From positions 1 to 20,144 of the IMG/VR virus record IMGVR_UViG_3300008263_000038: 20,144 nucleotides of DNA; one strand, 5' to 3'. This stretch comes from a virus. A model generated the notes under the pieces. It did no database searches. It was given only the letters and a program-made list of their open reading frames with translations, and was not told the origin of the DNA. Position 1 is the stretch's first letter. Every line of letters begins with the position of its first letter. The position numbers and the translations under genes were made by a program. Shown here piece by piece: positions 2,113-20,144 of this stretch.

Positions 2113-2115
2113 CGC

Positions 2116-3375: not shown

Positions 3376-3377
3376 CC

Positions 3378-4206: not shown

Positions 4207-4229
4207 TTGCGGGCTGGTCGCCCCGTAGC

Positions 4230-4261
4230 GTGAACGACAGACACGGACTGTCACCGTTCAC
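4230..4261 (+). promoter_or_regulatory. RNA hairpin just upstream of the capsid ribosome-binding site
   Basis: An 11-bp inverted repeat lies in the 70-base gap before the capsid gene: GTGAAC-GACAG (4230-4240), seven-base loop, CTGTC (4248-4252), three-base bulge, GTTCAC (4256-4261). It ends three bases before the capsid Shine-Dalgarno GGAG (4265-4268). There is no T-tract, so it is not an intrinsic terminator. It could be an mRNA-stability or processing element, or a translational control site for the highly expressed capsid gene. Confidence 0.5.
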
Positions 4262-4276
4262 CACGGAGCGCCACGG

Positions 4277-5581: not shown

Positions 5582-5609
5582 ACCTAAGAACCTCAAGGAA
5601 ACCAGAAAC

Positions 5610-6071
5610 GTGAACCACCTCCAGAACAGCAAGAGCGTCCTGAGCCTTTCCGCCGGCATCGCCGGTGTCGCCTCCGCTGGCACGCACACCGTCGCGGTGG
5701 ACTGCCTCGGTTACGACTCGGTGAGCATCGACGTGGGCTACCGCTCGCTGGTGCACACGACTGCCCCGAGCGTCGTGGCTATCCGCCACAGCGACACGGA
5801 CGGCTCGTACGTCACTGTCAGCGGGCTCATTCAGGGCACCGACTACACGCTGGCCGGCGTGACCAACACGGCCGTCGTGAACGTGACGCGATTTGAGCTT
5901 TCGACCAAGGCTCTGCGGCGGTACCTGCAGGTTTCGGTGACGCCGTCTGCGGACGCGTCATCCAACGGCACCAACAACGACATCGTCGTTGCGGCTCGGC
6001 TGGGCCGTGGCGAGTCGGGTGTCGATTCGGCCAGTGACGCAGGCGTCACCAACCGGGTCGTGCTTGGCTGA
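5610..6071 (+). CDS. Putative head decoration/stabilisation protein
   Basis: A 153-residue protein, rich in Ser/Thr/Val/Ala and predicted by eye to be mostly beta-strand, with no enzymatic motif, signal peptide or membrane segment. It starts at GTG 5610 with AAGGAA (5595-5600) nine bases upstream. Its place directly after the major capsid gene is where phages usually encode a capsid decoration (cement) protein, and size and composition fit; I see no family-specific motif, so the role is inferred from position. A general virion structural protein is the alternative. Confidence 0.6.
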   Translation: MNHLQNSKSVLSLSAGIAGVASAGTHTVAVDCLGYDSVSIDVGYRSLVHTTAPSVVAIRHSDTDGSYVTVSGLIQGTDYTLAGVTNTAVVNVTRFELSTKALRRYLQVSVTPSADASSNGTNNDIVVAARLGRGESGVDSASDAGVTNRVVLG

Positions 6072-6111
6072 ACGAAGACGGTAGAACGACAACTCCAACG
6101 AAGGAGGAGCC

Positions 6112-6882
6112 GTGGGCGCGGCGACTTCGACGGTGGCGGGCGTGCAGCCTGCCATCTTGCAGACGGGCAATGGTCCTGTGCGGCTCATGTGTGCCATGAG
6201 CGTGCCACGGCTAGGCTGGCAGGACCACATGTTCTGTTGGGCCCGTGGGCTCATTCCGTACGGCATCTCGCCGATACGGCTAGAGGGCGCGTTTTGGGGG
6301 CAATGCCTGGAACGTGTCCTCACGGACATCATCGAATCCGACACGGATCCCAGCAAGCCACCGCTGTGGATTCTGACGCTCGACTACGACAGCATCTTCG
6401 AAGCGGATGCGGTGCCCCGCCTGCTGACGTACGCGGTAGCCAGCGGCTACGACTTTGTGGCGGCGTTGCAGATGAAGCGACGCACGGACGAGCCGCTGTT
6501 CACGATGGTGTCGGAGGGCGGCGAGCGTGTGGCCGAGGTGGCCCGTGACCACTTCGTCTACCACAACGTCATCCAAGCCAACACGGCACACTTCGGATTT
6601 ACCATGCTGAAGGCAGACGCGTTGAAGCGGCTGCCGCACCCGTGGTTTATCGGCAAGCCGAATGAGGCTGGCCGGTGGGAAGACGGGCGGATTGACGATG
6701 ACATTGCATTCTGGCTGTCGGCACAAAAGGCGGGGCTGAAAATCGGCGTGTGCCCTCGGGTTTGCCTGGGGCATGCGGAGGTGTGGATTAAGTGGCCTGA
6801 CCAGAACATGCGGGCCAGCATGCAACATCCTGGCGATTTCTGGGACAAGGGCGGGCGACCACCTGACAACGTATGGCGGTGA
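6112..6882 (+). CDS. GT-A-type glycosyltransferase inside the head operon
   Basis: A 256-residue protein resembling nucleotide-sugar-dependent GT-A glycosyltransferases (GT2/Anp1-like). Residues ~22-60 look like the nucleotide-binding start. WILTLDYDSIF (86-96) carries a DxD metal/nucleotide-sugar motif (D91, D93). IDDDIAFWLSAQKAGLKIGV (194-212 region) matches the acidic catalytic-base segment typical of GT2 enzymes, and a histidine follows in LGHAEVW (H221). GTG 6112 follows a strong AAGGAGGAG motif. It lies between decoration and connector genes, in the same orientation and overlapping the next gene, so it is co-expressed with virion proteins. Possible targets are capsid or tail protein, modified DNA, or host surface sugars; virion glycosylation is my preferred inference. 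Confidence 0.8.
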   Translation: MGAATSTVAGVQPAILQTGNGPVRLMCAMSVPRLGWQDHMFCWARGLIPYGISPIRLEGAFWGQCLERVLTDIIESDTDPSKPPLWILTLDYDSIFEADAVPRLLTYAVASGYDFVAALQMKRRTDEPLFTMVSEGGERVAEVARDHFVYHNVIQANTAHFGFTMLKADALKRLPHPWFIGKPNEAGRWEDGRIDDDIAFWLSAQKAGLKIGVCPRVCLGHAEVWIKWPDQNMRASMQHPGDFWDKGGRPPDNVWR

Positions 6883-7103
6883 CCATGGACGGCGTGAAGG
6901 TACAGATGCAGAGGTCCTACATGCGTTACCGCACAGGCCAGGTCGTGACCGTGACGGCCGGGCTGGCTCGCACGCTCGAGCTTGCCGGCTATGCGAAGCG
7001 GGTGCAGGACGTGCCGCAGTTTGAGTTTGCGACGGCCCCAGAGCCGGCCGGGCTGGAGCGAGCCGAGTCGCTCATGGGCAAGCGGAGGCGGAAGCGTGCG
7101 TAA
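6873..7103 (+). CDS. Small basic protein of unknown function in the connector region
   Basis: A 76-residue protein, not recognised. It has a compact N-terminal part (RTGQVVTVTAGLARTLELAG around residues 20-39) that looks like a small beta-alpha unit, and a strongly basic C-terminus GKRRRKRA. It overlaps the end of the glycosyltransferase gene by ten bases (ATG 6873); a second in-frame ATG at 6885 is an alternative start. Its last bases carry the ribosome-binding site and GTG start of the connector gene. The placement suggests a virion assembly or accessory role. Confidence 0.65.
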   Translation: MAVTMDGVKVQMQRSYMRYRTGQVVTVTAGLARTLELAGYAKRVQDVPQFEFATAPEPAGLERAESLMGKRRRKRA

Positions 7104-7749
7104 CTGGGACTTGCCGCAGACCGGCAGCCGGTATCGCAGCCTGGTGGTGAGCACCGCCAGCGGTGCGGGCGACCGTCCCGTGAGCGTTAGTGAGGCGAAG
7201 GAGCATCTTCGCATCGTGGATTTCACGGGCGACGATGACTACGTCGGCGGGCTCATTGATGCGGCGACTACGTGGTGCGAGGACTTCTGCGACCGCACCT
7301 TCGCCGACAAGACGTACACCGTGGCGTTCGATGACTTTCCTGCTCTTCGCACCGAGCTCCCGCGCCCGCCGGTGCGGCTGAACGCGACTGCCGCGAGCGC
7401 CACGGTGACTGTCTCCTACGTGGACACATCCGGTGCCACGCAGACACTCGCGTGGGCGCAGTCTGGAAGCCAAGACTTCCGCCTAGACCGCGACCACGTT
7501 CCTGCCTTGATGTACCCGAAGTATCTGGAGAACTGGCCGAGCACGCGGCTGGATGACAAGGCAGTGCAGGTGACGTACTTGGCCGGCTACGGCGGTGCCG
7601 CCAACGTGCCGACGCCCGCGAAGCACGCCATCAAGATGCTTGTGGGGCACTGGTACGCCACGCGGGAGGCGGTCGGCAACGCTGGCCAGGACGTGCCTAT
7701 GGGTGTGCATGCCCTGCTCGCCCCCTTGAAGTGGAAGCAATACGCATGA
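7096..7749 (+). CDS. Head-tail connector protein (phiE125 gp8 / HK97 gp6-like)
   Basis: Adaptor ring expected to bind below the portal. The 217-residue protein starts with the signature of the phiE125 gp8 / gp6-like connector family: VSVSEAKEHLRI...DDDYVGGLIDAATTWCEDF (roughly residues 32-68), a helical domain, followed by a beta-rich insert and a C-terminal helix KHAIKMLVGHWYATREAV. The start is GTG 7096 because GGAGG at 7084-7088 is spaced seven bases from it; the frame stays open further upstream, but that part is an out-of-frame shadow of the preceding gene. Overlaps the preceding stop by eight bases. Confidence 0.85.
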   Translation: MRNWDLPQTGSRYRSLVVSTASGAGDRPVSVSEAKEHLRIVDFTGDDDYVGGLIDAATTWCEDFCDRTFADKTYTVAFDDFPALRTELPRPPVRLNATAASATVTVSYVDTSGATQTLAWAQSGSQDFRLDRDHVPALMYPKYLENWPSTRLDDKAVQVTYLAGYGGAANVPTPAKHAIKMLVGHWYATREAVGNAGQDVPMGVHALLAPLKWKQYA

Positions 7750-8153
7750 GCCTGGAAGGCCGCATTGCCATCGACGTGGCGTTTTCCGACTCAACGGCCA
7801 GCACCGGCACGCAGTCGCTCAAGCGGCTCGTGCTGACCAGCACCGACGCGTACACGAGCGGCAAGGTGGCCCTGGTGGCCGGAACCTGCGGTACGGCTGC
7901 CGTGGCGATTGCCGTGGCTCCCAGCACGTACAAGGACTCCAGCGGTGCGGCTGTGTCGTTTGCCACTGTGACGCGGTTTGCGTTCGCCGCCTCGACTGCG
8001 GCGGTGTGCAGCGAGGCGGCTGGGGCGGGCGTTGCCATTTCGGGCGGCAGCCGGGTGGCGGTGAGCGATTCCCGCAACGGCGGCACGTCGGGCTTCAACG
8101 TCTCGGCCTACTCGGGAACGGCGTCCTACAGCCTCGTCATCTACGGGACGTGA
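7746..8153 (+). CDS. Small Ser/Ala/Thr-rich protein, likely virion-associated
   Basis: A 135-residue protein, not recognised. It is rich in Ala, Ser, Thr, Val and Gly, with alternating hydrophobic stretches suggesting a beta-sandwich, and has no enzymatic motif. ATG 7746 forms an ATGA overlap with the connector stop; an in-frame GTG at 7731 is a weaker alternative. It lies between the connector and the head-closure gene. Its style resembles the protein downstream of the capsid gene (5610-6071), but no alignable repeat was seen. A minor structural or decoration role is inferred only from context. Confidence 0.6.
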   Translation: MSLEGRIAIDVAFSDSTASTGTQSLKRLVLTSTDAYTSGKVALVAGTCGTAAVAIAVAPSTYKDSSGAAVSFATVTRFAFAASTAAVCSEAAGAGVAISGGSRVAVSDSRNGGTSGFNVSAYSGTASYSLVIYGT

Positions 8154-8156
8154 CGC

Positions 8157-8477
8157 ATGCTCAAGTCGGGTTTGATGGACACGCTCGCCACGGTGCAGAC
8201 GCCGACGGACTCCACCAATTCCATCGGCGAGCCGGAACTGGCGTGGAGCACGTTTGCGACGCGGTGGATTGCGATTCTGCCGCTGTCGGGCAACGAGCAA
8301 ATCAGTGCCATGGCGAACGAGGGCAGCGTCACGCATCGCGTGCGGATGCGGTACACGGACGGGCTGAAGCCGAAGATGCGGATCCAAGCCGACGGGCGGC
8401 AGTTTGAAATCATGTCGGTGATGGAACGGGGCCGCCGCGAGGAACACGAGCTCATGGTGTCGGAGGTCATCGACTGA
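8157..8477 (+). CDS. Head closure / head-tail adaptor protein (SPP1 gp16-like)
   Basis: A 106-residue protein with the pattern of the Phage_H_T_join family (PF05521; SPP1 gp16, HK97 gp7 class). It has a start with TLATVQTPTD, an extended middle WSTFATRWIAILPLSGNEQ, then HRVRMRYTDGLKPKMRIQ and a C-terminal QFEIMSVMERGRREEHELMV. It would form the ring that closes the head after packaging and receives the tail. ATG 8157 begins three bases after the preceding stop and the stop overlaps the next start (TGATG), indicating coupled translation. Confidence 0.85.
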   Translation: MLKSGLMDTLATVQTPTDSTNSIGEPELAWSTFATRWIAILPLSGNEQISAMANEGSVTHRVRMRYTDGLKPKMRIQADGRQFEIMSVMERGRREEHELMVSEVID

Positions 8478-9067
8478 TGGCTGACGTTGTCATGACGGTG
8501 GAAGGCGTCGAGCGAATCCTGGCGGGCTTCTCCCGGTTGTCTCGCGGTGTGCAGCGGAAGTACCTCGGGGCGTCCGTGCGGGCAGTCGTGAAGGCGGCCG
8601 TGCCCCAGGTGAAAGCTCTGACGCCGCGTGGTCCGACGGGCAACCTGCGGCGGTCGGTCGGGCTGAAGCTGGAGAAAAAGAAGAGGAACACCACCGTCAC
8701 CGGCATCGTGGGTTATCGGTCCTCGAACGGCGGCAACCGCAACGAGCTCGGTTTTCACGCGTGGTGGGTGGAGAACGGCACCCGTGACCGATACCCGCAA
8801 GGCAAGGCACTGAGCGTGCCGCTGCGGCTGGCTGCGAAATACCCGTACATGAAGGGCCAGGCGTCGCTCATTGGCGGCCCTGACGGCGGGGCCATCTTCT
8901 TCAAGAGCGTGCGGGGCTACACCGGAAGCGACAAGTTCCGCCAGTGGTCCGATGCCAACTTGCCACGCATGAAGCAGGAACTGGTCGGCAAGCTTGAGCA
9001 GAACCTCGGGGCCGCCATCGCTGAAGAAGAGCGGCGGATGATTCGCAAGATTCACGGTGGCAAGTAA
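8477..9067 (+). CDS. HK97 gp10-like tail completion protein
   Basis: A 196-residue protein of the HK97 gp10 family (PF04883), thought to act at tail completion and head-tail joining. Visible signatures are an N-terminal VEGVERILAGFSRLSRGVQR helix, VVKAAVPQVKALTPRGPTGN followed by LRRSVGLK, and the conserved HAWWVENGTRDRYP segment around residues 95-108. The C-terminus is longer than minimal gp10 proteins, ending in a basic helix. The start overlaps the preceding stop by one base and its stop overlaps the next start by one base. Confidence 0.85.
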   Translation: MADVVMTVEGVERILAGFSRLSRGVQRKYLGASVRAVVKAAVPQVKALTPRGPTGNLRRSVGLKLEKKKRNTTVTGIVGYRSSNGGNRNELGFHAWWVENGTRDRYPQGKALSVPLRLAAKYPYMKGQASLIGGPDGGAIFFKSVRGYTGSDKFRQWSDANLPRMKQELVGKLEQNLGAAIAEEERRMIRKIHGGK

Positions 9068-9480
9068 TGCCGACTTTCACGCTCATTGACGAATCCCTTG
9101 TGCAGCTGCTGTCGGCAGACGCCGACATTGCCTTGACTGTCGGAGGCCGCATCTACGCCGTACAGGCTCCGCAGGGAACGACGCTGCCGTGCATCGTCTA
9201 CCAACGGGAAAGCCTCGGCCGTGGGCCGTACATGCACATGCAGGGCATGACGGGAATTACCCGCGTGACGTTCACGGTTTCGGCTGTTGGCGAGTCGCTG
9301 TTGGAGGTGCGAAACCTCGCGCGAGCCATTCGGACAGCCCTACAATTCAAGAGGACGGAGGCTATTCGGCTCGCCGTGGTCAAGGACGACGACGATGCCC
9401 AGGAGCCGCCCGCCAACGGCGAGCAATTGCCGATTTATCGCACGGATGTTTCGGTGGAAATCACGTACACGGAGAGTTGA
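9067..9480 (+). CDS. Tail completion/terminator-like protein (DUF3168)
   Basis: A 137-residue protein matching the DUF3168 (gp17/gpU-like) family, the ring that ends tail polymerisation and contacts the head. Family-typical segments are LVQLLSADADIALTVGGRIY (about 11-30), QGTTLPCIVYQRES (about 36-49), a TRVTFTVSAVGESLLEVRNL strand-helix unit, and a C-terminal PIYRTDVSVEITY strand. ATG 9067 overlaps the previous stop (TAATG). It lies exactly where expected, between the gp10-like and tail-tube genes. Confidence 0.85.
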   Translation: MPTFTLIDESLVQLLSADADIALTVGGRIYAVQAPQGTTLPCIVYQRESLGRGPYMHMQGMTGITRVTFTVSAVGESLLEVRNLARAIRTALQFKRTEAIRLAVVKDDDDAQEPPANGEQLPIYRTDVSVEITYTES

Positions 9481-9483
9481 CGC

Positions 9484-9885
9484 ATGGCTGCTGACATCGG
9501 ACAGGGCACGTATGTTTCGTTCGGTACGGCCGTGCACACGGCGACCGGCTACAAGATCACCGGCGTGAACCACGGCGGTATCTCTCGTGCGGTGGCCGAG
9601 GCTACGCACATGACGAGCTCAGCGAAGGAGTTCGTGGCCAGTGCCATCTACGACCCCGGCGAGTTGTCGGTCGAGGTGCTGTTCGACCCGTCCATCAAGC
9701 CAACGGGCGACCTGGCGAACGTCGCCACCAATCAGGTCGTGACTGTGTACTGGGCCAACGGCGGAACCGCCGTGGCGCAGTGGACGGCGTTCGGCTTTGC
9801 CACCGGCTTCGAGGCTGGCGCCCAGATGGAAGACATGATGAGCGGCACGCTCACCATCAAGCTCTCGGGCACGCTGCCGAGCTAG
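9484..9885 (+). CDS. Major tail (tube) protein
   Basis: A 133-residue protein that would stack as hexamers to form the tail tube. It is short and beta-rich: GQGTYVSFGTAVHTATGYK at the N-terminus, an ELSVEVLFDPS strand in the middle and GTLTIKLSGTLPS at the C-terminus, the usual pattern of small siphovirus tube proteins. It has no extra immunoglobulin-like C-terminal domain as lambda gpV has. It sits immediately before the chaperone pair and tape measure, the invariant order of long-tailed phages. Confidence 0.85.
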   Translation: MAADIGQGTYVSFGTAVHTATGYKITGVNHGGISRAVAEATHMTSSAKEFVASAIYDPGELSVEVLFDPSIKPTGDLANVATNQVVTVYWANGGTAVAQWTAFGFATGFEAGAQMEDMMSGTLTIKLSGTLPS

Positions 9886-9903
9886 TGCTGACAGGAGGCG
9901 CGG

Positions 9904-10257
9904 ATGGCTCTGACCCGTGAGCAGATTAAGGCCAAGCGGGGCGTGCGGCCCCGTGTCGCCGTCGAGGTGCCGGAACTGGGCACGGTCTACGTCGCCAAGT
10001 TCTCGGCGAAAGACCGCGACCGGTTTGAGCAGATGGTGACGGGCGGACGCGTCGGCGGCAACGTCAACCTCGACAACGTGCGGGCCCGATTCGTGGCCAT
10101 GGTGTGCGTCAACGAAGACGGCACGCGGATGTTCGAAGACGGCGACGCCGAATGGATTGGCGAGCTCGACACGGACATTGTGCAGACCATCGTGGACGCT
10201 GGGTTCAAGCTGAACGGTATCGGCGTCAATGCAGTGGAGGAGGCGGCGGGAAAATAG
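9904..10257 (+). CDS. Tail assembly chaperone, short form (gpG-like)
   Basis: A 117-residue protein in the position of lambda gpG. It binds tape measure and tube subunits during tail assembly and is absent from the finished virion in studied phages. ATG 9904 has AGGAGG (9893-9898). Sequence features are a basic N-terminus (REQIKAKRGVRPR), a beta segment VYVAKFSAKDRDRFEQM and an acidic helical end. The last codons GCG GGA AAA TAG place a slippery heptamer directly at the stop, so a fraction of ribosomes should continue into the next frame and make a 221-residue gpGT-like fusion. Confidence 0.85.
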   Translation: MALTREQIKAKRGVRPRVAVEVPELGTVYVAKFSAKDRDRFEQMVTGGRVGGNVNLDNVRARFVAMVCVNEDGTRMFEDGDAEWIGELDTDIVQTIVDAGFKLNGIGVNAVEEAAGK

Positions 10258-10291
10258 AAAGCCGGCCGGTGCTGCTGTTCCTGTACCGGCT
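10236..10291 (+). promoter_or_regulatory. Programmed -1 ribosomal frameshift site of the chaperone pair
   Basis: The heptamer G_GGA_AAA lies at 10248-10254, in the correct X_XXY_YYZ phase relative to the upstream frame, and the 0-frame stop TAG follows at once (10255-10257). Two stimulatory elements are visible. A Shine-Dalgarno-like GGAGGAGG at 10236-10243 is just upstream. A downstream stem can form as AGCCGG (10260-10265) with CCGGCT (10286-10291), or alternatively GCCGGT (10265-10270) with ACCGGC (10285-10290), starting 5-10 bases after the heptamer. Lambda uses the related GGGAAAG at the same locus. Confidence 0.88.
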
Positions 10292-10568
10292 GGCGTTGAA
10301 GCTGGGAACGTGGAACGTCGAGGGTCCAGGCGGACTCGCGGAGGTGATGCCGGTAGACCAGCTGTACGGATGGATGGGGTACTACCTCATTGAGCCGTGG
10401 GGCGACGAGTGGCTGCGGGACGCAGTCGCACATTGCCAGCGGTACAACGCCAACCGAGGAAAGAACAAGCCGCCGAAGAAGCCCGAGGACTTCATGCCGG
10501 TGCCGAAGCGAGCCCAGACGCCAGACCAGATCCTCGCCACGTTGAACGCAATCCCACGCCCACAGTGA
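10254..10568 (+). CDS. Frameshift extension of the tail assembly chaperone (gpGT-like T domain)
   Basis: This frame encodes 104 residues after the slip (IESRPVLLFLYRLALKLGTW..., ending TLNAIPRPQ). It has no ATG or good ribosome-binding site of its own; an in-frame GTG at 10269 is a weak alternative start. Joined to the upstream 117 residues it gives a 221-residue product, matching the gpG/gpGT arrangement of siphoviruses, where the long form recruits the tape measure through its T domain. It has a helical hydrophobic start, a Trp-rich middle (GWMGYYLIEPWGDEWL) and a basic KNKPPKKPEDF segment. The region ends four bases before the tape-measure start. Confidence 0.86.
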   Translation: MESRPVLLFLYRLALKLGTWNVEGPGGLAEVMPVDQLYGWMGYYLIEPWGDEWLRDAVAHCQRYNANRGKNKPPKKPEDFMPVPKRAQTPDQILATLNAIPRPQ

Positions 10569-10572
10569 TGCC

Positions 10573-12042
10573 ATGGCCAAGAACTTCGGACGCGTCAACG
10601 TCAGCGTCACGGCCAGCACTGGCGGGCTGACGGCGGGGCTGGCTCGAGCGAGCAAGCAGCTCAAGGGCTTTCAGTCTGGCGTCAGCGGCATGTCGGCGTT
10701 GGGTGGTGCCCTTGGGCAGATTTCTCCCATGCTGCTGCCGGTAGTGGGTGGGTTTGCCACGCTGGCGGGGGCAATTGCCGCCCTCGCGTCTGCGACGCGT
10801 GCGGCCGAGGCGTTGCACAATCTGTCGCAAGAGTTGGGCGTGGCTACTGGCGACCTGCAGGTGATGCAGCAAGTAGCTGCCGAAACGGGCGTCAGTCAGG
10901 AGGCGTTGACTGCTGGGCTGCGGCGTACGTCTCGTATGGTCGGCGAGTTGGCACAAGGGTCAAAGCCGGCCGAGAAGGCGTTTGCCCAGTTGGGCCTGAC
11001 GATGCAAGACATGGCTGGGCTGTCCACGGCCCAGCAGTTCGCGTTAATTTCGCAGCGCATCGCCGCCCTGCCGCCGCAGATGCAGGCTGCCGCCGCCATC
11101 GACATCTTCGGTCGTAGTGGGCAAGGGCTGCTGAACTTCATCCGCTCGGGCGCAGACGGCATCGGGGAGATGGACACGCTGCTGACCAATCTCGGCGTGA
11201 AGATGAGCGGTCCGCAAGTCGCAGCCATCGAAGCCATGGGCGACGCAATTGGCCGCCTGGCGTTGCCGATGCAGGGCTTCGTCAATCAGTTCCTGGCCAA
11301 CCTTGCCCCTGCCATCACCACGGTATCCAACCTCATCGTGGAGTTCTTCGCTAAGAACACGGCCGGCTGGACAGTGGCGAAGACGCTTGCCGACGGCTTG
11401 GTGTTTTCTATCCGCATGGTGGTCGGTGCCGTCACGCTGCTCACTGGCATCTTCCAGGTCTTCATGGCTCTTGGCTCGCAGATTGGCCAGATGTTCAGTG
11501 AGGTGTTCTCGCTCATCTTGTCTGGCGTTTCTCGCGTGATGAAGTCAATGGCCGCCTTGGCCGACGCGGCCGGATTTGATGGCCTGGCCGACAGCCTGGC
11601 GGAAGGCAGCCGTGGTGCCCGCGCGATGGCACGCGGTGCCTCCGAGATGGGGCAGATGTACGGCGAAGAGGCCGCCAATAGTTTTGCCGCCGGCGTGCAG
11701 AATATCAGGAACCCGTTTGCAGCGTTTGATGCGGGATTCGCTCAAGCGCAGGCTGATGCTCAGGCTGCCAGTGCAGCCCAGGCAGGCAGTGCCGCCGGCC
11801 AGAGTATCGGCTCTGCCATCAAAGCCGCATCCTCCGAGCTTCGCGCCCTGGTGGTCGGCTCGTCAGAGGGCGAGTCGTTTCGCAACTCCCTGGCCCGTGG
11901 CGGCGACCCGCGACTTGCGGGCGGCGACGCCGCGAAGGCGACCGCCGACAACACCGAGCGAACCGCCGACGGCGTCGAGGATGTGGCCGCCGCCGTCCGC
12001 GAAATCCCCGGCTTCGGCCAAGCACAGATTGCGATGGTGTAG
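10573..12042 (+). CDS. Tail tape measure protein (short)
   Basis: A 489-residue, Ala/Gly/Ser-rich helical protein that would set tail length and is ejected with the DNA. The N-terminus NVSVTASTGGLTAGLARASKQLKG resembles the TP901-type tape-measure start (quoted in parts; residues 9-32). Two hydrophobic segments are seen at about 52-75 and 279-302, and long heptad-like helical regions lie between and after them. It follows the frameshifting chaperone pair. At about 0.15 nm per residue (the established ruler relation) it predicts a tail of only about 70 nm. No lysozyme or peptidase domain was recognised. Confidence 0.87.
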   Translation: MAKNFGRVNVSVTASTGGLTAGLARASKQLKGFQSGVSGMSALGGALGQISPMLLPVVGGFATLAGAIAALASATRAAEALHNLSQELGVATGDLQVMQQVAAETGVSQEALTAGLRRTSRMVGELAQGSKPAEKAFAQLGLTMQDMAGLSTAQQFALISQRIAALPPQMQAAAAIDIFGRSGQGLLNFIRSGADGIGEMDTLLTNLGVKMSGPQVAAIEAMGDAIGRLALPMQGFVNQFLANLAPAITTVSNLIVEFFAKNTAGWTVAKTLADGLVFSIRMVVGAVTLLTGIFQVFMALGSQIGQMFSEVFSLILSGVSRVMKSMAALADAAGFDGLADSLAEGSRGARAMARGASEMGQMYGEEAANSFAAGVQNIRNPFAAFDAGFAQAQADAQAASAAQAGSAAGQSIGSAIKAASSELRALVVGSSEGESFRNSLARGGDPRLAGGDAAKATADNTERTADGVEDVAAAVREIPGFGQAQIAMV

Positions 12043-12045
12043 CCG

Positions 12046-12960
12046 ATGGCCATTCGCACGGTTCGGCAACTGCGGTCGTTTGAGTTTTCGGAAACCAAAT
12101 CCGAGAAGGGCTCAATTCAATACGCGGGCTCGGTTGAGCTGCTCATTATCTGCACCTCGGCCCCAGACTTCGGTGCCATCAAGAACGACACCAACACTTG
12201 GCCGGAGTTCTTCAATCGCGCGATTCCGCAGATCAACGACTTTGAGCCGGTCGGCGGCATTGACTTCTATGTCACCGGCCGAGACTTTTCGTACTACGAC
12301 GATGAAAACGAGTTCTGCGTCAAATGCACTGTGAAGTATGACGCGAAGCCGGTTGACATCGACAATGACAAGGAAGACGAGCCGAACGACGAAGAACTGA
12401 CGTGGCTGAAGATTTCTCTGCAGTCGCTGCAGGAGCGTCGCCCGGCAAGCGAGTCAAACCAAGATGACCCGAACGAGCCAATCAAGCCGCCGCTGAACTC
12501 AGCTGGCGACCCGGTCGACGGGCTCGAGGAAGACACTGCCCTACTGCGACTGACGTACACCAACACGAACGTCCAGGCACCTGACTTTCCGCTGCTGTTC
12601 ACGTACCTCAATACCTGCAATCAGACGGCTTTCCTGGGTGCCGACCCGTACAAGCTTCGTGTCACCGGATACGGTGCGGAGTTTGACCAGAAAAATCAGG
12701 TCTGGAGTGTTTCGGTTGAGTGGACATACAACCCAGCGGACTGGAAGATCCGCTACTACGACGTGGGTTACAACGAAGTTGTCAGCGGTTATCGGATGGC
12801 CGTGCTTGATAAGTCAGGGAACCCCGTGTCAAAGCCGGTGGCGTTGAACCCCGACGGTTCCGCCAAGGATGTCGGGGAAGAACCCGATGTGCTGTCAATC
12901 AAGCCGTATGACGAGAAAGACCACACCACCATGCTTCGCAGCTGTGGGCTGCTGCCGTAG
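12046..12960 (+). CDS. Unknown protein in the distal-tail position
   Basis: A 304-residue protein I cannot assign. It is acidic, with a low-complexity Asp/Glu/Asn stretch (about 103-118, DIDNDKEDEPNDEE) and a Pro/Asn-rich hinge (about 138-152), flanked by beta-rich N- and C-terminal halves (for example WSVSVEWTYNPADWKIRYYD). No signal peptide or membrane segment is visible. It starts three bases after the tape-measure stop, where long-tailed phages encode the distal tail protein, so a tail-tip hub role is plausible but unproven. Six cysteines are scattered along the chain. Confidence 0.75.
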   Translation: MAIRTVRQLRSFEFSETKSEKGSIQYAGSVELLIICTSAPDFGAIKNDTNTWPEFFNRAIPQINDFEPVGGIDFYVTGRDFSYYDDENEFCVKCTVKYDAKPVDIDNDKEDEPNDEELTWLKISLQSLQERRPASESNQDDPNEPIKPPLNSAGDPVDGLEEDTALLRLTYTNTNVQAPDFPLLFTYLNTCNQTAFLGADPYKLRVTGYGAEFDQKNQVWSVSVEWTYNPADWKIRYYDVGYNEVVSGYRMAVLDKSGNPVSKPVALNPDGSAKDVGEEPDVLSIKPYDEKDHTTMLRSCGLLP

Positions 12961-12969
12961 GAGAAAACG

Positions 12970-13350
12970 ATGGCCAACGAAGTTTCTGTATCGCTGACTG
13001 TTGCTGTGGCAAATGGCAACCACAATGAGACATTTCAGGCCAGTGGCCTGCGGTTCAGCCAGGCGGCCCAGGGTGTCCACGCCCAGATCGTGAACGTCAC
13101 GACCAATGTTTCAACGCTGAGCATCGGCGCCATTACGGCGGCTGGCTACGCCGGGTTTCGTAATCTCTCGACGGCCACTAGCGGCACGGCGTACGTGGCC
13201 ATCGGCTCGTACGACGGCACGAACATTCAAGAGTTCTGCAAGCTCGCACGCGGTGCCGCAGCCGTTGTGCCGCTCGTGCCGACCGTCACGCTCGCAGCCA
13301 AGGGCTACGGCACCACCGGAAAGATTCGGTACGTCGTGTTTCAGGAGTGA
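12970..13350 (+). CDS. Small beta-rich tail-region protein, unknown
   Basis: A 126-residue protein, not recognised. The N-terminus ANEVSVSLTVAVANGNHNE and the rest (VNVTTNVSTLSIGAITAAG, TAYVAIGSYDGTNIQEF, TTGKIRYVVFQE) suggest a single beta-sandwich domain. ATG 12970 has a strong GGAG (12960-12963) that overlaps the preceding stop codon. Composition and size fit a virion surface or tail-tip component; the role is inferred from its place among tail genes. Confidence 0.7.
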   Translation: MANEVSVSLTVAVANGNHNETFQASGLRFSQAAQGVHAQIVNVTTNVSTLSIGAITAAGYAGFRNLSTATSGTAYVAIGSYDGTNIQEFCKLARGAAAVVPLVPTVTLAAKGYGTTGKIRYVVFQE

Positions 13351-13353
13351 CCC

Positions 13354-13848
13354 GTGGCCGACACCTTCGGGTTCTCACTGAATGACGCCAAGCGAATCGG
13401 CAAGGCTGTTCGGCTCATTGAGCGGGACGAGCCGCGCCAGTCGCTCGGCGGGCCGAATGACGCGGCTATCTCGCGTGGCGTTCGCCTGCTTATCGCCAAG
13501 CACGAAAGCACGGCCGGCTGGGCCAAGGAAACCACGGCCATCGTGACGGTCTACAACGGCGACCCTATCGCCTCTGCCGTGACGGTCGTGGCCCACAATC
13601 AGTTCCTGACGTTCTCGACCACGACGGCTTGTACGCAGCGGTGGGTGGCCCTGGGTCACAACGGCTGGGGCTGGTATGCCGTGAACCAAGAGCGGGTGTG
13701 TACTGCGACGTGCTCGATGGAGGTCGCGGGCGTGGATTTTTCTACGCTCCAAGGATACCAGCCGACCGCGACGCAAATGCTTGGCCACGCTGCAGGTTGC
13801 ATTCGGTGGTTTGATATTGCCACCTGTGCGACGGCGACATCGGCATGA
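13354..13848 (+). CDS. Unknown tail-region protein, 164 aa
   Basis: Not recognised. It starts at GTG 13354 with AGGAG (13343-13347) six bases away. The N-terminal ~45 residues are helical and charged (FSLNDAKRIGKAVRLIERDE). The rest is beta-rich with an aromatic patch VALGHNGWGWYAVNQ (about 98-112) and five cysteines concentrated in the second half. It has an ATGA overlap with the following cysteine-rich gene, so the two are probably made together. Possible tail-tip component. Confidence 0.7.
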   Translation: MADTFGFSLNDAKRIGKAVRLIERDEPRQSLGGPNDAAISRGVRLLIAKHESTAGWAKETTAIVTVYNGDPIASAVTVVAHNQFLTFSTTTACTQRWVALGHNGWGWYAVNQERVCTATCSMEVAGVDFSTLQGYQPTATQMLGHAAGCIRWFDIATCATATSA

Positions 13849-14537
13849 CGCTCATCACGTTTCAAGACGGCAGGCCCGTCATGCGTGACGGCAAAATCGG
13901 CACGGAGCAAGAGTGCTGCTGCTCTGCTCCCTGTACGTGCAACACATGCGAAGCACACATTTACGTGAACGGTGTCGAGCTGCCATTCACGCCGTTCACG
14001 GACTTTTTCGGCAATCCGACTTGCGACCCGTGCAGGCTGATTGATGCCAGCCCGAACTCCTACGCAGATATCCCATGCGCGGAAACGCCGCCGTGGGATC
14101 TTGCGGAGGCGTGCGAGGAGATTTTTGCAGGCTATCTCGATTGCGACGAGCCACAGCCTGACCCCGAGAATCCACTGCCGCGTTACGATGGATGCGTCAG
14201 CATTGAATGTGGCTACCGCGCTGCTGCGTGCTATTTGTGCGAGAACGACCAGCCTACGGTTCGCATTCACTACTTCGCTATTTACACGGTTAATTTTGCC
14301 ACATGCGAGGGCGGCACTGAGACTACGACCTTTGTGACGCGGTTCTGGTATCGCGACTACGCCCTGTCATCGCTCCCGCCGTGCGACGGGCCAGCCGTTA
14401 CGCTTGAGCAGGTTGGCGACGATGTTGACCTGTGGGATACGGACTGCGGCCAGACCGCCCCTGGATACGGCCAGGGCCAGATGTGCGGCTGCGACCTCAC
14501 GGCTTCCATCCTGTGCATCGGGCCGGACTTCCCATGA
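13845..14537 (+). CDS. Cysteine-rich protein (21 Cys in 230 aa), unknown
   Basis: Not recognised. I count 21 cysteines in 230 residues, with a dense N-terminal cluster ECCCSAPCTCNTCE (about 23-36) and others in CxxC or CxC form (CDPC, CYLC, CGC). There is no signal peptide or membrane segment. The N-terminal segment FQDGRPVMRDGKIGTEQECC looks like a short structured lead-in. Such density suggests several metal sites or a disulfide-hardened domain. It sits at the end of the tail module with ATGA overlaps on both sides, so it may be a tail-tip or adhesion protein; this is inference. Confidence 0.75.
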   Translation: MTLITFQDGRPVMRDGKIGTEQECCCSAPCTCNTCEAHIYVNGVELPFTPFTDFFGNPTCDPCRLIDASPNSYADIPCAETPPWDLAEACEEIFAGYLDCDEPQPDPENPLPRYDGCVSIECGYRAAACYLCENDQPTVRIHYFAIYTVNFATCEGGTETTTFVTRFWYRDYALSSLPPCDGPAVTLEQVGDDVDLWDTDCGQTAPGYGQGQMCGCDLTASILCIGPDFP

Positions 14538-14863
14538 TTACCGGGCGCCGCTCGTCGTTTGAGGCTCGCTGCCGCCAGCGTGGCTACACGCTCGACGAGG
14601 TGCGGCCGTGCATTCTCAGCGAAGACGGCGAAACCATCACGGTTGACGAGACGCACGCGGCTTACCCGCGTGCCCGCCCAGGCTTAGGCGACATGGTCGC
14701 CGCAGGACTTGCGTCTGTTGGTATCACCAAGGCAAGGGTTTCGGCGGTGCTCGGCCGCGACTGTGGCTGCGCCAAGCGGCAGCAGGCGTTGAACGAGCTC
14801 GGCAAACGTCTAGGGATTGGCGGCAATGCCGACGCAGGACCATCACTTCCGCCTCAACGGTGA
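14534..14863 (+). CDS. Unknown small basic protein with C-terminal CGC motif
   Basis: A 109-residue protein, not recognised. The start was set at ATG 14534, which forms an ATGA overlap with the stop of the cysteine-rich gene; the reading frame is open further upstream but that part is a shadow. The N-terminal half has FEARCRQRGYTLDEVRPC and the C-terminal half a short helix with DCGCAKRQQALNELGKRLGI. Four cysteines in two pairs could bind a metal. Translational coupling to the preceding gene suggests a shared task. Confidence 0.68.
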   Translation: MITGRRSSFEARCRQRGYTLDEVRPCILSEDGETITVDETHAAYPRARPGLGDMVAAGLASVGITKARVSAVLGRDCGCAKRQQALNELGKRLGIGGNADAGPSLPPQR

Positions 14864-15125
14864 CGAGCCGTGGCTGATCCGGTTCACCACGCTCAAGGGT
14901 GCGGCGTATGGCTACACGTTCAGCCAGAAGGCCAAGCATCCCCGCATCATCCTCGACGCTCGCATGCGTGGCCGGAAGAAGCTCGAGGTCATCGTGCACG
15001 AGCTGCTCCACGCTCTGAACCCGACGCAAAGCGAGGAACACGTCGAGCAGCAGGGCAAGGATATCGCACGCGTGCTGTGGACGCTTGGTTATAGGGAGGT
15101 GAGCGATGGCAAAGGCAACGACTAG
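14826..15125 (+). CDS. Small HExxH zincin-like metallopeptidase
   Basis: A 99-residue protein with a zincin signature: VIVHELLHAL (HELLH at 58-62) followed by EEHVE, where E70 or E71 could be the third zinc ligand. An upstream beta-strand (PRIILDARMRG) precedes the active-site helix, as in minimal zincins. Whether it cleaves peptides is unknown; phage genomes often carry such small SprT/WLM/IrrE-like proteins. ATG 14826 is preferred over TTG 14817 because AGGGA (14812-14816) has nine-base spacing to it. It overlaps the previous gene by 38 bases. Confidence 0.75.
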   Translation: MPTQDHHFRLNGDEPWLIRFTTLKGAAYGYTFSQKAKHPRIILDARMRGRKKLEVIVHELLHALNPTQSEEHVEQQGKDIARVLWTLGYREVSDGKGND

Positions 15126-15357
15126 CCTGGCCGACGATGTCCTGTCTGCCGTGACGAACTACAAGCCGGGGCAGCGGACGTGGTTTGACCGGCTGCCGCC
15201 CGAGGCCCAGCAGGAGTTGCTAGCGGTTCGCGAGGCGTTCGATCCGACACTGCATCAAAAGCGGGCGTTCTATAAGGCATTGAAAACCGCAGCGGAGAAA
15301 CGTGGATGGCAACTCGTGGGCGAAAAGCAATTCGGCGATTGGCTGCGCCAACGCTAG
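15106..15357 (+). CDS. Small helical protein, unknown
   Basis: An 83-residue protein, all-helical by eye and basic toward the C-terminus, not recognised. Notable segments are WFDRLPPEAQQELLAVREAF (about 26-45) and a C-terminal KTAAEKRGWQLVGEKQFGDW block that could be a small DNA-binding helix pair. ATG 15106 has GGAGG (15095-15099) six bases upstream. It overlaps both neighbours: 20 bases with the zincin and 52 with the phosphoesterase gene. Confidence 0.68.
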   Translation: MAKATTSLADDVLSAVTNYKPGQRTWFDRLPPEAQQELLAVREAFDPTLHQKRAFYKALKTAAEKRGWQLVGEKQFGDWLRQR

Positions 15358-16427
15358 CAGACGACGTTGCCGAGCAGATGGCGACGGTGGACCGGCTCGC
15401 AACCGACGCGGAACTCGCGCGGCTGCGGTCAGAGGTGGCGTCGTACCAAAAACGGTACAAGGCCGCCCTCCAGCAGATTGACCGCGAGCGGGAGCGGGCC
15501 GATGCACTTGTCGCACTGCGGGGCATAACGGCGACACGGCCGCCGCAGCGTGTTGCGCGGAGCGACAAGAAGCACGACGCCACGATGGTGGTGCTGCTGT
15601 CTGACATCCACTGCGAAGAGACGGTGCGACCAGAGACGGTGAACGGGCTCAACGCGTTTGACCTCGACGTGTGCTCAGCCCGGCTTGCGGAACTCCAGCG
15701 GCGGTTCCTTGCCATGCTGGAACACGAGCGGCAACTGGCTCGCGTGGACCGCGTCGTGTTGTGGATGGGCGGCGACCTCATCAGCGGCATGATTCACCCG
15801 GAACTCGCGGAGGAGAACAGCCTGCACCCACTGGCGGCGACTCGCTGGATTGGCGAACGGCTGCGGGGATTCATCGACGCGGCGGCCGACAATGCGAAAG
15901 AAATAGTGGTAGCGACTTCTTGCGGAAATCACGGCCGCACCACGGAGAAGCTGCGGACGAACGAGGCTGACACGTCCTATGAGCATCACCTGTATCTCAC
16001 CATGCGTGCCGCTGAGACTAACAAGCGGGTCCGCTGGCTCGTTGGTGAAGGCCACCTTAACTATGTGGACCTCGACGGGTTCAAGATTCGTTTCTGCCAC
16101 GGTCATGCCGTGCGATACCAGGGCGGCATCGGCGGCATCCACGTGCCGCTCAACAAGGCGGTGTCGGCATGGGACGCGACACAGAAAGCGGACCTCACCT
16201 GCATCGGGCACTGGCACCAGTTCTCATGGTCACGCTCGGGTCGCTACGTCACGAACGGCAGCGTGATTGGACACTCCGCATACGCTGTGCGAATCAAGGC
16301 GACATACGAGCCGCCGTGCCAAGCCGCCATCGTGATTGACCACGGGCGGCGCGAGGTGACCAAGGCTTACCCTCTGTTCTGCGACCACGATTTGCGAAAG
16401 GACACCAATGACCGCCGCCCTACTTGA
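15306..16427 (+). CDS. Calcineurin-like metallophosphoesterase
   Basis: A 373-residue protein with all metal-binding motifs of the calcineurin-like/Mre11-SbcD phosphoesterase superfamily in order: SDIH (D100, H102), MGGDLISG (D157), CGNHGR (N208, H209), CHGHA (H265/H267) and GHWHQ (H302, H304). A charged coiled-coil region (about 30-70) precedes the catalytic domain. It would hydrolyse phosphodiesters or phosphomonoesters with two metal ions; a nuclease role on phage or host DNA is possible but the substrate is not readable from sequence. ATG 15306 has GGAG (15294-15297) eight bases upstream. No partner SbcC/Rad50-type ATPase is in the window. Confidence 0.87.
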   Translation: MATRGRKAIRRLAAPTLADDVAEQMATVDRLATDAELARLRSEVASYQKRYKAALQQIDRERERADALVALRGITATRPPQRVARSDKKHDATMVVLLSDIHCEETVRPETVNGLNAFDLDVCSARLAELQRRFLAMLEHERQLARVDRVVLWMGGDLISGMIHPELAEENSLHPLAATRWIGERLRGFIDAAADNAKEIVVATSCGNHGRTTEKLRTNEADTSYEHHLYLTMRAAETNKRVRWLVGEGHLNYVDLDGFKIRFCHGHAVRYQGGIGGIHVPLNKAVSAWDATQKADLTCIGHWHQFSWSRSGRYVTNGSVIGHSAYAVRIKATYEPPCQAAIVIDHGRREVTKAYPLFCDHDLRKDTNDRRPT

Positions 16428-16518
16428 AGCCGCCAACGAAGCCCTCCGCTCTGCCGTGCGTGACCGCCTGGAGGCGACGCCCGCCGATGACCCGAAAGTG
16501 CCAGCCGAAGACGATTGA
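16408..16518 (+). CDS. Micro-ORF of 36 codons, possible small protein
   Basis: Encodes MTAALLEAANEALRSAVRDR and 16 further residues ending PAEDD: a short amphipathic helix followed by an acidic tail. ATG 16408 has AAAGGA (16397-16402) five bases upstream and overlaps the end of the phosphoesterase gene, and its own end overlaps the proposed start of the next gene, the packing style seen throughout this operon. There is no homology I can name; it could alternatively be a leader that couples translation of the next gene. Confidence 0.5.
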   Translation: MTAALLEAANEALRSAVRDRLEATPADDPKVPAEDD

Positions 16519-16975
16519 CGCAGAATCTCGCGTCACCAACGAGCTCCTGGCGGCCTCCGTGCAGGAGCAAATCGCCAAGTGGTCGCGAATCATCGACGAG
16601 GCAGAGGCTAAGTACGCAGCCAGCAAGGAGCCCCGCCAGACCGGCGACGGCGTGATGGGCGACGCCGTGCATCCAACGTCGCAGGCATTCTTTGACTTGT
16701 GCGATGCGTTGAAGGAAATGCACCGGAGGAAATCGAGCGACTACGGGTGCCCCAGCGGCACAGATCCGCTGGCGAACATCCGCAACGGGGCGAAGTTCGT
16801 CGGCATCCCGTCGTGGAAAGGTGCGATGGTTCGCCTGTCGGATAAGGTCACGCGGCTGGCGACGTTCAACGCCACTGGCCGCCTGGAGAACGAGAGCTTG
16901 GAAGACAACCTCTTCGACCTCGCTTCGTACTCGCTGCTCGCCCTGCTGCTGCACCGCGAGGAACGCGATGCCTGA
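16487..16975 (+). CDS. DUF1599 / Nmad1-like nucleotide-modification-associated protein
   Basis: A 162-residue protein whose second half matches the pattern of DUF1599 (nucleotide modification associated domain 1). Residues about 68-90 contain FFDLCDALKEMHRRKSSDYG, then DPLANIRNGAKFVGIPSW (93-110), RLSDKVTRLATF (116-127) and ESLEDNLFDLASYSLLALLL (136-155), where the E/D pattern resembles a MazG-like metal site. The family has been linked by genomic context to nucleotide or DNA-base modification in phages. Start ATG 16487 has GGAGG (16470-16474) at a rather long 12 bases; the frame is also open from TTG 16424. Its neighbours, phosphoesterase and DNA methyltransferase, fit a nucleic-acid role. 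Confidence 0.72.
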   Translation: MTRKCQPKTIDAESRVTNELLAASVQEQIAKWSRIIDEAEAKYAASKEPRQTGDGVMGDAVHPTSQAFFDLCDALKEMHRRKSSDYGCPSGTDPLANIRNGAKFVGIPSWKGAMVRLSDKVTRLATFNATGRLENESLEDNLFDLASYSLLALLLHREERDA

Positions 16976-17174
16976 ACCGTTAAGCGATGCTTATCTGTTG
17001 GAGGCCGAGTTTCGCGCCCGTGCCTTCTCGGGTGCCTTCACCGGCACCGCTGGCACGCTCGCGGCTGACGTGCTGCGATTGCTCGCGGAGTTGTCGCGCG
17101 TGAAGGGCAAGCTGGCCGTCACCATCGCACAGCGTGACGAGCGGCCGTGCCTGTCGCATATTCGCGGGGATTGA
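16968..17174 (+). CDS. Small helical protein, unknown
   Basis: A 68-residue protein, not recognised. It reads as two or three helices (SDAYLLEAEFRARAFSGAFT, ADVLRLLAELSRVKGKLAVT) ending in a basic, cysteine-containing tail. ATG 16968 overlaps the end of the Nmad1-like gene, with GAGG (16958-16961) six bases upstream. Upstream in-frame codons are shadows of the preceding gene. It is the last gene before the methyltransferase. Confidence 0.62.
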   Translation: MPEPLSDAYLLEAEFRARAFSGAFTGTAGTLAADVLRLLAELSRVKGKLAVTIAQRDERPCLSHIRGD

Positions 17175-17203
17175 TTGCTTGACATGCTTGCCACCATGGC
17201 GGC

Positions 17204-18565
17204 ATGGCATGGAACATCTACCACGGCGACTGCCGCGAGGTGATGCAGACGCTCCACCCCGAGAGCGTCGATAGCATCGTGAGCGATCCGCCCTACGGGC
17301 TGTCGTTCATGGGCAAGGGCTGGGACCACGGCGTGCCCGGCGTCGAGTTCTGGGCCGAAGCTCTCCGCGTGGCGAAGCCCGGTGCCCACCTGCTCGCGTT
17401 TGGCGGAACGCGCACGTTTCATCGGCTGGCGTGCGCGATTGAAGATGCGGGCTGGGAAATCCGCGACTGCGTGATGTGGGTGTACGGCAGCGGGTTCCCG
17501 AAGTCGCACGACGTGAGCAAGGCGATAGACAAGGCGGCGGGAGCGGAGCGGGAGGTGGTTGGGAGAGGGGTTTGCGGAGAAACCGCCATCAGCGACAAGG
17601 CAGGGGAAGTGGCTGGATACAGGCCGAAGGCATATTACGAAGGGCGGACGGGGTTTGACATCACCGCCCCCGCCACCGACGCGGCCCGCCAGTGGTCCGG
17701 CTGGGGCACGGCGTTGAAGCCCGCCTGGGAGCCAGTGATCGTGGCCCGCAAGCCGCTCTGCGGCACCGTCGCGGAGAACGTGCTGACGCACGGCACGGGC
17801 GGGATCAACGTGGATGGGTGCAGGGTGGCGTCGAGCGACCAGATCGCCGCCGTCACCGGCAAGGCAACGCTCTGCGGAACGCGAGACGGCTACGACCGAC
17901 CTTGGAAGCACGACCCCGCCGCATTGGCTGCACGGCAAGAGCGGGCGAACGCTGCCATTGAGAAGGCGAACACGCTAGGCCGCTGGCCCGCCAACGTCAT
18001 CCACGACGGCAGCGACGAGGTGGTGGGGCTGTTTCCGCAGACGGGGGCAAGCAGCGGCAGGCCGAGACGAAACACGGCGGCGGCTCATAACGCGACGAAC
18101 AGCATGGGCAAGTCAGTGGCGGATTGGACGACGCTCGGACACGACGACAACGGCGGTTCCGCCGCCCGCTTCTTCTACTGCGCCAAGGCGAGCAAGGCGG
18201 ATCGGGATGAAGGGTGCGAGGGGCTGGTGGCAAAAACGAACGACTGGCAAAGGCCGACTTCGGGGCTGTCGCAAGGGAAAAACCCGGCGACCGGCGAACG
18301 CAGCGGCGTGACGATGAAGCCACGAACAAACCACCACCCCACCGTGAAGCCCACCGCCTTGATGCGTTACCTCTGCCGCCTCGTCACGCCACCGGGCGGC
18401 GTGGTGCTCGACCCGTTCACAGGCAGCGGCTCTACCGGCAAGGCTGCCGTGCTCGAAGGGTTCCGCTTCATCGGTATCGAACGCGAGGCCGAATACGTCG
18501 AGATAGCCAAGGCGAGGATCGGGGCGGCAGAGGCGGGGGCCGGGCCGCTGTTCACGCAAGACTGA
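17204..18565 (+). CDS. DNA methyltransferase, N6-adenine/N4-cytosine type (class beta order)
   Basis: A 453-residue SAM-dependent DNA methyltransferase. The catalytic motif IV DPPY is near the N-terminus (28-31) and the SAM-binding motif I DPFTGSGSTG near the C-terminus (403-412), the beta-class order; IYHGDCREVM at 5-14 and the TVKPTALMRYLCRL segment before motif I also fit. A long insert (about 120-380) probably holds target recognition. Start ATG 17204 lacks a Shine-Dalgarno motif. No restriction enzyme is adjacent, so it is likely an orphan phage methyltransferase protecting DNA or altering regulation. The DPPY motif favours N6-adenine or N4-cytosine. Last gene of the + strand unit. Confidence 0.9.
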   Translation: MAWNIYHGDCREVMQTLHPESVDSIVSDPPYGLSFMGKGWDHGVPGVEFWAEALRVAKPGAHLLAFGGTRTFHRLACAIEDAGWEIRDCVMWVYGSGFPKSHDVSKAIDKAAGAEREVVGRGVCGETAISDKAGEVAGYRPKAYYEGRTGFDITAPATDAARQWSGWGTALKPAWEPVIVARKPLCGTVAENVLTHGTGGINVDGCRVASSDQIAAVTGKATLCGTRDGYDRPWKHDPAALAARQERANAAIEKANTLGRWPANVIHDGSDEVVGLFPQTGASSGRPRRNTAAAHNATNSMGKSVADWTTLGHDDNGGSAARFFYCAKASKADRDEGCEGLVAKTNDWQRPTSGLSQGKNPATGERSGVTMKPRTNHHPTVKPTALMRYLCRLVTPPGGVVLDPFTGSGSTGKAAVLEGFRFIGIEREAEYVEIAKARIGAAEAGAGPLFTQD

Positions 18566-18625
18566 GCCGGGCCTGGGGTGTGTGGCGCGAGTCATCCTTT
18601 CCTCGCGTCGCCCCCAGTGCCCGGC
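18566..18625. terminator. Long imperfect hairpin between convergent genes, candidate bidirectional terminator
   Basis: Immediately after the methyltransferase stop, GCCGGGCCTGGGG (18566-18578) pairs with CCCCAG-T-GCCCGGC (18612-18625, one bulged T): 13 bp. Inside, CGCGAG (18586-18591) pairs with CTCGCG (18602-18607) over a ten-base loop. The leftward gene ends at 18629, so the hairpin fills the convergent gap. There is no T-tract on either side, so classical intrinsic termination is not assured; transcript 3'-end protection is an alternative. Confidence 0.65.
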
Positions 18626-18628
18626 ACG

Positions 18629-18898
18629 CTATTGCGCCAGCCGCTCCACGACGTTCCCTACCGTGGCGAGCCATTCACGCACGCGAACCTTCTCATCCGG
18701 CGTCAGCCCTGTTGCGTGTTCGAGCAACCGGCAGACCACATTGCAGACGCTACCCAACGCTTCGCATTCCTCCAGGCTGAACGTCGCCTTTGCCAGCAGG
18801 GCTTCGTAGTCGTCGCGGCTGACCCACTGGCGACCGTCAGGCGAGCCGTAGACGTTGACGGCGTGGCGACGGGTGTCGGCGGCAAGGCGGTTGCTCAT
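18629..18898 (-). CDS. Unknown 89-aa protein, last gene of the leftward operon
   Basis: Not recognised. It is mostly helical (DDYEALLAKATFSLEECEAL and DEKVRVREWLATVGNVVERL), with a short beta-like lead SPDGRQWVSR. The ATG at 18898 has AGGAG on the - strand seven bases upstream, an excellent ribosome-binding site, and overlaps the upstream gene's stop (ATGA). Longer + strand open frames over the same bases lack ribosome-binding sites and are shadows. Probably an accessory phage protein. Confidence 0.72.
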   Translation of the reverse strand: MSNRLAADTRRHAVNVYGSPDGRQWVSRDDYEALLAKATFSLEECEALGSVCNVVCRLLEHATGLTPDEKVRVREWLATVGNVVERLAQ

Positions 18899-19110
18899 CG
18901 CGTCACTCCTGGCGGCTGGTCCGCATCTATCAGCATTCGCCGCTCCTCACGCAAGGCGGCGACCTCCTGGCGTAGCGTGCGAACCTCGGTGCGTAGGCTT
19001 GTGATGGTAGCGGCTGCGTCGCGTAGGCAGCGGCACAACTCAAGCCGTTCAAAGTCCTCGGGCGGCGTGTTCGCCAGCGTGGCATTGAGGCGGGCAATGA
19101 TGTCGCTCAC
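18895..19110 (-). CDS. Small coiled-coil protein, unknown
   Basis: A 71-residue protein with a clear heptad region at about 36-60 (ITSLRTEVRTLRQEVAALRE) after a helical N-terminus containing two cysteines (LELCRCLRDAA). It starts with GTG at 19110, preceded by GGAGG on the - strand, and the GTGA overlaps the stop of the upstream mini-gene. A role as an oligomerising adaptor is possible, but nothing in the sequence fixes it. Confidence 0.7.
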   Translation of the reverse strand: MSDIIARLNATLANTPPEDFERLELCRCLRDAAATITSLRTEVRTLRQEVAALREERRMLIDADQPPGVTR

Positions 19111-19214
19111 TTCACCTCCGGCGGCTCGGGTAGCGGCATCCAGTGGGTGACGTTGATTTCGTCAATGTCGCCGTCTGCGTGCTGCCAGAATCCATCTTGC
19201 GCGTGACGGCTCAT
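19107..19214 (-). CDS. 35-aa protein resembling the C-terminal end of DUF551
   Basis: Reads MSRHAQDGFWQHADGDIDEI then NVTHWMPLPEPPEVK. The VTHWMPLPEPP ending is the characteristic C-terminus of DUF551 phage proteins, whose usual length is about twice this; the N-terminal part (normally starting with a WISVKDRLP-like motif) is missing. A stop codon lies a short way upstream in the same frame, so it is a genuine stub. Its stop overlaps the GTG of the next gene (GTGA) and its 5' part overlaps the preceding gene by 53 bases. No ribosome-binding site is visible, so it may be a remnant or a coupled mini-protein. Confidence 0.55.
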   Translation of the reverse strand: MSRHAQDGFWQHADGDIDEINVTHWMPLPEPPEVK

Positions 19215-19422
19215 AAAGGAGACGTGCGATCCGCTTGGCTATCTGCTGCCCGAAACTGCCAATGAAATGCACGGCCGCCTTCATGTTCGCCGCAGCGTCG
19301 GTCGGGTTGAACGCAAAGCCGTTGGGTGCCTTGCCTGCCGATGCCTTTTCGTAGGCGTCGGCCAGCATCAGAAGGTTGTCGATGACTTCGCCACAGGTCA
19401 GGTTGTAGTCCTTCATCTCCAT
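19162..19422 (-). CDS. Unknown 86-aa protein, first small gene after the integrase
   Basis: Not recognised. Start ATG 19422 was chosen because the - strand has AAAGGAG ending seven bases before it; the longer form from 19449 lacks such a site. The protein is helical (GEVIDNLLMLADAYEKASAG, then DAAANMKAAVHFIGSFGQQI) and ends in an unusual Arg-rich tail (AARRRRH) that overlaps the DUF551-like stub. The odd tail could mean its normal stop was lost when the DUF551-like gene was truncated. No good promoter was found in the 82 bases before it. Confidence 0.65.
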   Translation of the reverse strand: MEMKDYNLTCGEVIDNLLMLADAYEKASAGKAPNGFAFNPTDAAANMKAAVHFIGSFGQQIAKRIARLLYEPSRARWILAARRRRH

Positions 19423-19504
19423 CGGCGGTCTCCTTTCGCGTGGCATCATACACGGTCACGCTATTTCACGCTGATTGCATGGCAGGCAATTACGGCGAAA
19501 TGGC

Positions 19505-20144
19505 CTACCTCGGCTTCCCCGGCCCGCCTCCAAGGTCGAGCGGCGGGAGGGCCGCCGTGCTGTTACTCTCCTGCGGGCAGATGAGCGGATCGACATACAC
19601 CCGCTGCAGGTTCGGGTCGCTGTGATCGAGCAGCTGCGTCGCCGCAGCGGCCCCACCGGCCAGGGCGGCGTATGAGGCTGCCGTCCTTCTAAGCCCGTGG
19701 AAGCCCCGATACTGCACCCCAGCGGTGCGGCACAACACCTTGAGGCTCGCCCACTGGCTGCGGCTTTTGCGGTCCCACGGCCAGACGAGGTCATCCGGCT
19801 GCCGCTGGTGCATCCGCAGCATGGCCGCCAGGTCGGGCGTGATGGCTCGCTCGATGTCCCTGGTCGAGCCCTTGCGGGTCGAACCAAGGAACACACCCTG
19901 CATCGGTCTAGGTCCACCTGGGCCCACCGGAGCGACGTAGCGGCCTCAAAACGCTCGCCGGTGCAGTAGATGGTGTAGAGCAGCGTGGACCACCACCAGG
20001 CCGACGGGAGGCCCCCTGTGTGGCCGATGCGGTGCTTGGCCTGTCTGACCAGCCTGGACACGTCATCGGCCGTGTAGGCCCTTCCTGTTGGCAGCCGCTT
20101 GGGAACCTTGATCTTTGGCAGCTCTGGGAACTCGGCAGCCCACC
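19505..20144 (-). pseudogene. int: Tyrosine recombinase/integrase, frameshifted and cut by the window edge
   Basis: Site-specific recombinase for phage integration. The catalytic domain reads leftward from the right edge in one frame (FPELPKIKVPKRLPTG..., then TGERFEAATSLRWAQVDLDR) and switches by -1 near 19894 to another (VFLGSTRKGSTRDIERAI..., ending GGGPGKPR at 19505). Across both frames every catalytic residue is present: Arg in TGERFEA (19953-19951), Lys in TRKGS (19873-19871), HxxR in FHGLRR, His in LLDHSDP and the nucleophile Tyr in RVYVDP (19597-19595). One missing base explains the break; the local sequence agggtgtgttcc is not a slippery heptamer. Recent inactivation or a sequencing error is likely. 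The N-terminal core-binding part is outside the window. Confidence 0.82.

Follow-up and report, generated by a model that had tools for sequence, protein, structure and literature searches.

The gene at the end of this virus contig raises the question of whether the frame break in its tyrosine recombinase was suffered by the phage or entered with the sequence record. The window, by which we mean the whole 20,144-nucleotide stretch analysed here, is a complete linear IMG/VR virus record, itself a fragment, and its end is the contig end. At 20144 this end truncates the 5' end of the recombinase gene, 250 bases from the frame break, with the result that about 93 N-terminal residues of the integrase (counted on the frame of the intact relative L002) are missing irrespective of the break.

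The sequence and the list of open reading frames confirmed what the earlier note had described, namely a recombinase laid out in two minus-strand frames that join by a -1 step near 19894. The upstream frame (19894-20142, minus strand, 83 amino acids), whose 5' part lies beyond the contig end, is open from 20142, carries the catalytic Arg and reads ...TGER...VDLDRCRV, with VDLDRCRV ending at 19896-19894. The downstream frame (19508-19894, minus strand, 129 amino acids) reads VFLGSTRKGS...HGLRR...LLDHS...RVYVDP, runs to 19508 and carries Lys, HxxR, His and Tyr. Between the two lies a break of net -1 nt at 19892-19896 on the minus strand, which leaves the window with no single continuous frame across the catalytic domain. 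Since a single uninterrupted open reading frame of L002 covers both halves at 99% identity, the split is more than a chance arrangement of frames.

The catalytic set of tyrosine recombinases consists of Arg, Lys, HxxR, His and a Tyr nucleophile. To locate these residues we used the window sequence together with an alignment of the two window halves and 18 hand-picked relatives (17 drawn from 58 IMG/VR loci, plus L060). This placed Arg at 19951-19953, Lys at 19871-19873, His at 19697-19699, Arg at 19688-19690, the second His at 19622-19624 and Tyr at 19595-19597. None of the 18 relatives lacks Arg, Lys, His, Arg or Tyr, and each of these residues is also present in whichever window half spans its position; the remaining His stands in its column in 16 of the 18, the GHS motif of L059 and L060 lying one column off. 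Thus the full set is retained, and the break does fall between the catalytic Arg and Lys, both as previously claimed. The visible part of the gene contains no further lesion.

The family assignment was clearest for the unbroken protein. Intact L002 passed the Pfam cut-off for PF00589 (E 2.6e-7, 31 bits against a cut-off of 27.1) and matched phrog_1 in PHROGs (E 3.4e-29). Taken alone, the C-side half of the window gene gave a weak Pfam match under the cut-off (E 0.0029) and a match to phrog_1 (E 1.4e-9), and the N-side half gave no Pfam match. A PDB sequence search returned nothing at E 0.001, and IntI4 (2a3v) appeared at an E value of only 0.97. Judged by these profile matches and by the conserved residues, the gene encodes a phage integrase of the ordinary tyrosine-recombinase type. 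Its phage is tailed, of temperate type, and known from metagenomes. The gene resembles other phage integrases of this kind (PF00589; phrog_1, phrog_216) in the profile matches of L002 and in its kept catalytic residues, differing only in the broken frame and in the 5' end lost at the contig end.

A comparison with relatives, which the earlier note had proposed, was made by scanning IMG/VR with the downstream half of the integrase. This yielded 58 loci, which include near-duplicates and are not independent. All 58 read through the break point in an open frame, and the two-frame layout occurs in none of them; in five (L003, L009, L030, L038 and L039) the frame reaches the edge of the locus, and in L003 and L039 fewer than 25 codons are visible upstream of the break point before that edge. 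The nearest relative, L002 (IMGVR_UViG_3300008120_007876), is 99% identical and unbroken. Between 19415 and 20144 of the window, three substitutions and two one-base indels separate the two sequences; one of the indels falls exactly at 19894, and this extra base in L002 supports the suggestion that a single base was lost, read as a net loss. An exact 25-mer over the broken joint was found in no IMG/VR record, and a gapped control pattern that fits either a broken or an unbroken joint matched only L002, unbroken, although the window's own record may have been excluded from that search.

On the C side, dN/dS between the window and L003 was 0.05 (46 synonymous and 11 non-synonymous differences), and the values against L023, L012 and L004 ranged from 0.12 to 0.28. 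The comparison with L003 points to an integrase that was under strong selection until recently. Neither the annotated phage collection nor a first genome scan yielded a close relative; a distant genome scan produced 41 loci, made up of one clear relative (L219) and 40 weaker matches. L219, the only clear genome relative, lies on a small Phycisphaerales MAG contig (37% identity, E 5e-51), a hint that the hosts may be Planctomycetota.

Together with two others, the integrase break makes three losses that disrupt a reading frame within the final 3.7 kb of the window; none was seen in the first 16 kb. At 19239/19240 the window lacks 68 nt relative to two contigs of the same phage, L060 and L061, and this breaks a DUF551 gene, leaving an open reading frame at 19162-19449 of 95 amino acids in place of the 136 of the intact protein. 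At 16495/16496 it lacks 47 nt relative to L060 and L002, which breaks a gene starting at 16408; its 204 codons in L060 are cut to 36 by a stop in the window. Neither loss is divisible by three, and each broken gene is open in at least one contig of the same phage. The window and L060 show no substitutions from 16177 to 19528. Microhomology at the 47-nt and 68-nt losses amounts to 1 and 0 bases, respectively.

The rest of the window looks different. Against two records of the same phage, positions 1-14962 matched that of L211 over 14,962 bases and positions 9087-16000 that of L061 over 6,914 bases; the printed identity is 100% for both matches, and neither shows a net change in length. Over positions 1-5109, L211 showed one substitution and no indel. 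As a control, the more distant contigs L140, L141 and L142 were compared over the head genes, which are more constrained, and differed by 98, 48 and 270 substitutions, again with no indels.

The other contigs vary in the same region. L061 is without 90 nt relative to L060, starting at the very base of the window's 47-nt loss (16495/16496), and this loss is in frame, so that its gene remains open with 174 codons. L061 also lacks window positions 17079-17241 (163 nt). L002 has losses elsewhere of 50, 2, 143, 83 and 276 nt, and window positions 15352-15401, 16842-16984, 18509-18591 and 19139-19414 are absent from it. Deletions among what appear to be contigs of the same phage are mostly not multiples of three, and up to 18508 hardly any substitutions accompany them; over 18592-19138, the window and L002 differ by 25 substitutions. 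The stretch from 15.3 to 19.4 kb may be one of deletion-prone strain variation, or may be poorly assembled in all of these contigs.

How then is the break to be read? Programmed -1 ribosomal frameshifting would yield a full recombinase from the two frames, which do overlap and need only a net -1 step to be joined. Yet the gene occupies a single frame in every one of the 58 relatives, including the one that is 99% identical, and a heptamer scan over 19456-20142 found no X_XXY_YYZ slippery heptamer in the zero frame. The earlier note had thought regulated frameshifting less likely for lack of such a heptamer; this was borne out by both the scan and the relatives, and on these grounds we rejected the idea, which is now barely conceivable. 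An old, decayed integrase pseudogene, as the broken frame and the sub-threshold Pfam match of the C-side half might suggest, is very improbable, and was likewise rejected, given the 99% identity of each half to the intact protein of L002 and a dN/dS of about 0.05 against L003. The same signature of purifying selection against near relatives would be expected of a very young break. A genuine, very recent one-base loss that inactivated the integrase, leaving a variant unable to integrate or excise by itself, would fit a clean break that keeps every catalytic residue in a gene with no other visible lesion, in surroundings (15.3-19.4 kb) that are also deletion-variable in L002 and L061. Against it, the broken joint was found in no other IMG/VR record, and all three frame-breaking losses sit together at the end of the contig, two of them with no substitutions nearby. 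Of the two possibilities left standing by the earlier note, recent knockout or assembly error, we therefore consider the knockout unlikely, and the evidence leans to error. It is more doubtful still that all three losses are real; in that case new breaks in the integrase, the DUF551 gene and the gene at 16408, confined to 3.7 kb, would mark a phage lineage of this population that is shedding its lysogeny end.

From this we infer that the frame break is probably a sequence or assembly error, rather than a mutation, in a poor contig end. The end of the contig appears poor because it holds three frame-breaking losses where the first 16 kb holds none, and error is favoured because these losses cluster there, in genes that contigs of the same phage keep open without substitutions. 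Strain differences can produce misassemblies, and indel errors left uncorrected in long noisy reads give rise to frameshifts, according to the review PMC8021871. Like such frame-breaking indel errors in metagenome assemblies, the losses in the window are net losses that shift the frame, lie close to the end of a contig and interrupt DNA that is otherwise identical; the point of difference is that the larger ones lack microhomology. Some observations count against an error. With microhomology of 1 and 0 bases, the two larger losses are not what a simple collapse of assembly-graph paths would leave; L061 also shows a loss from the same base (16495/16496), and there are further deletions in L002 and L061. 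In addition, a one-base gap is atypical of short-read error. The phage itself most likely carries an unbroken integrase gene, and we infer that its product most likely works as a standard Arg-Lys-His-Arg-His-Tyr recombinase.

The earlier note had added that a knockout would strand the prophage. The window encodes a terminase, portal, head protease, major head, tail completion and tape measure protein, and most of the genes that have clear family matches are structural genes of phages. No host DNA was identified in the window, and a tRNA search of it found none. As the named genes belong to phages and the record covers only a fragment, the window does not demonstrate an integrated state, and that statement is left unsupported. 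Among the head and tail genes, one at 6112-6882 has a weak match to glycosyltransferase family 2 (E 1.1e-4, below the cut-off). In the related locus L023, an excisionase-like gene adjoins the integrase, and further on come a RecT-like gene and a helicase; by virtue of these neighbours the phage group looks temperate.

In contigs of the same phage, identical downstream DNA adjoins a different integrase instead, as seen when window positions 19529-20144 are set against L060:3447-4082 and L061:7331-7909. The L060 integrase is 49% identical to that of L002 in alignment, and the two switch over within the final codons of the gene, where both have the tail PPLDLGGGPGKPR in common. Going by these alignments, one integrase seems to have been swapped for another within a single phage population.

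What the locus means depends on which of these readings holds. If the knockout were real, it would add one more recently inactivated phage integrase, and if the losses across the lysogeny end were all real, a temperate phage would have been caught in the course of turning strictly lytic. If the break is an error, as we think probable, it calls for caution, since the contig ends of virus records can mimic knockouts, something that contigs of the same phage are able to reveal. The presence of two different integrases on the same flanking DNA within one phage population bears, in turn, on how phages change their integration site.
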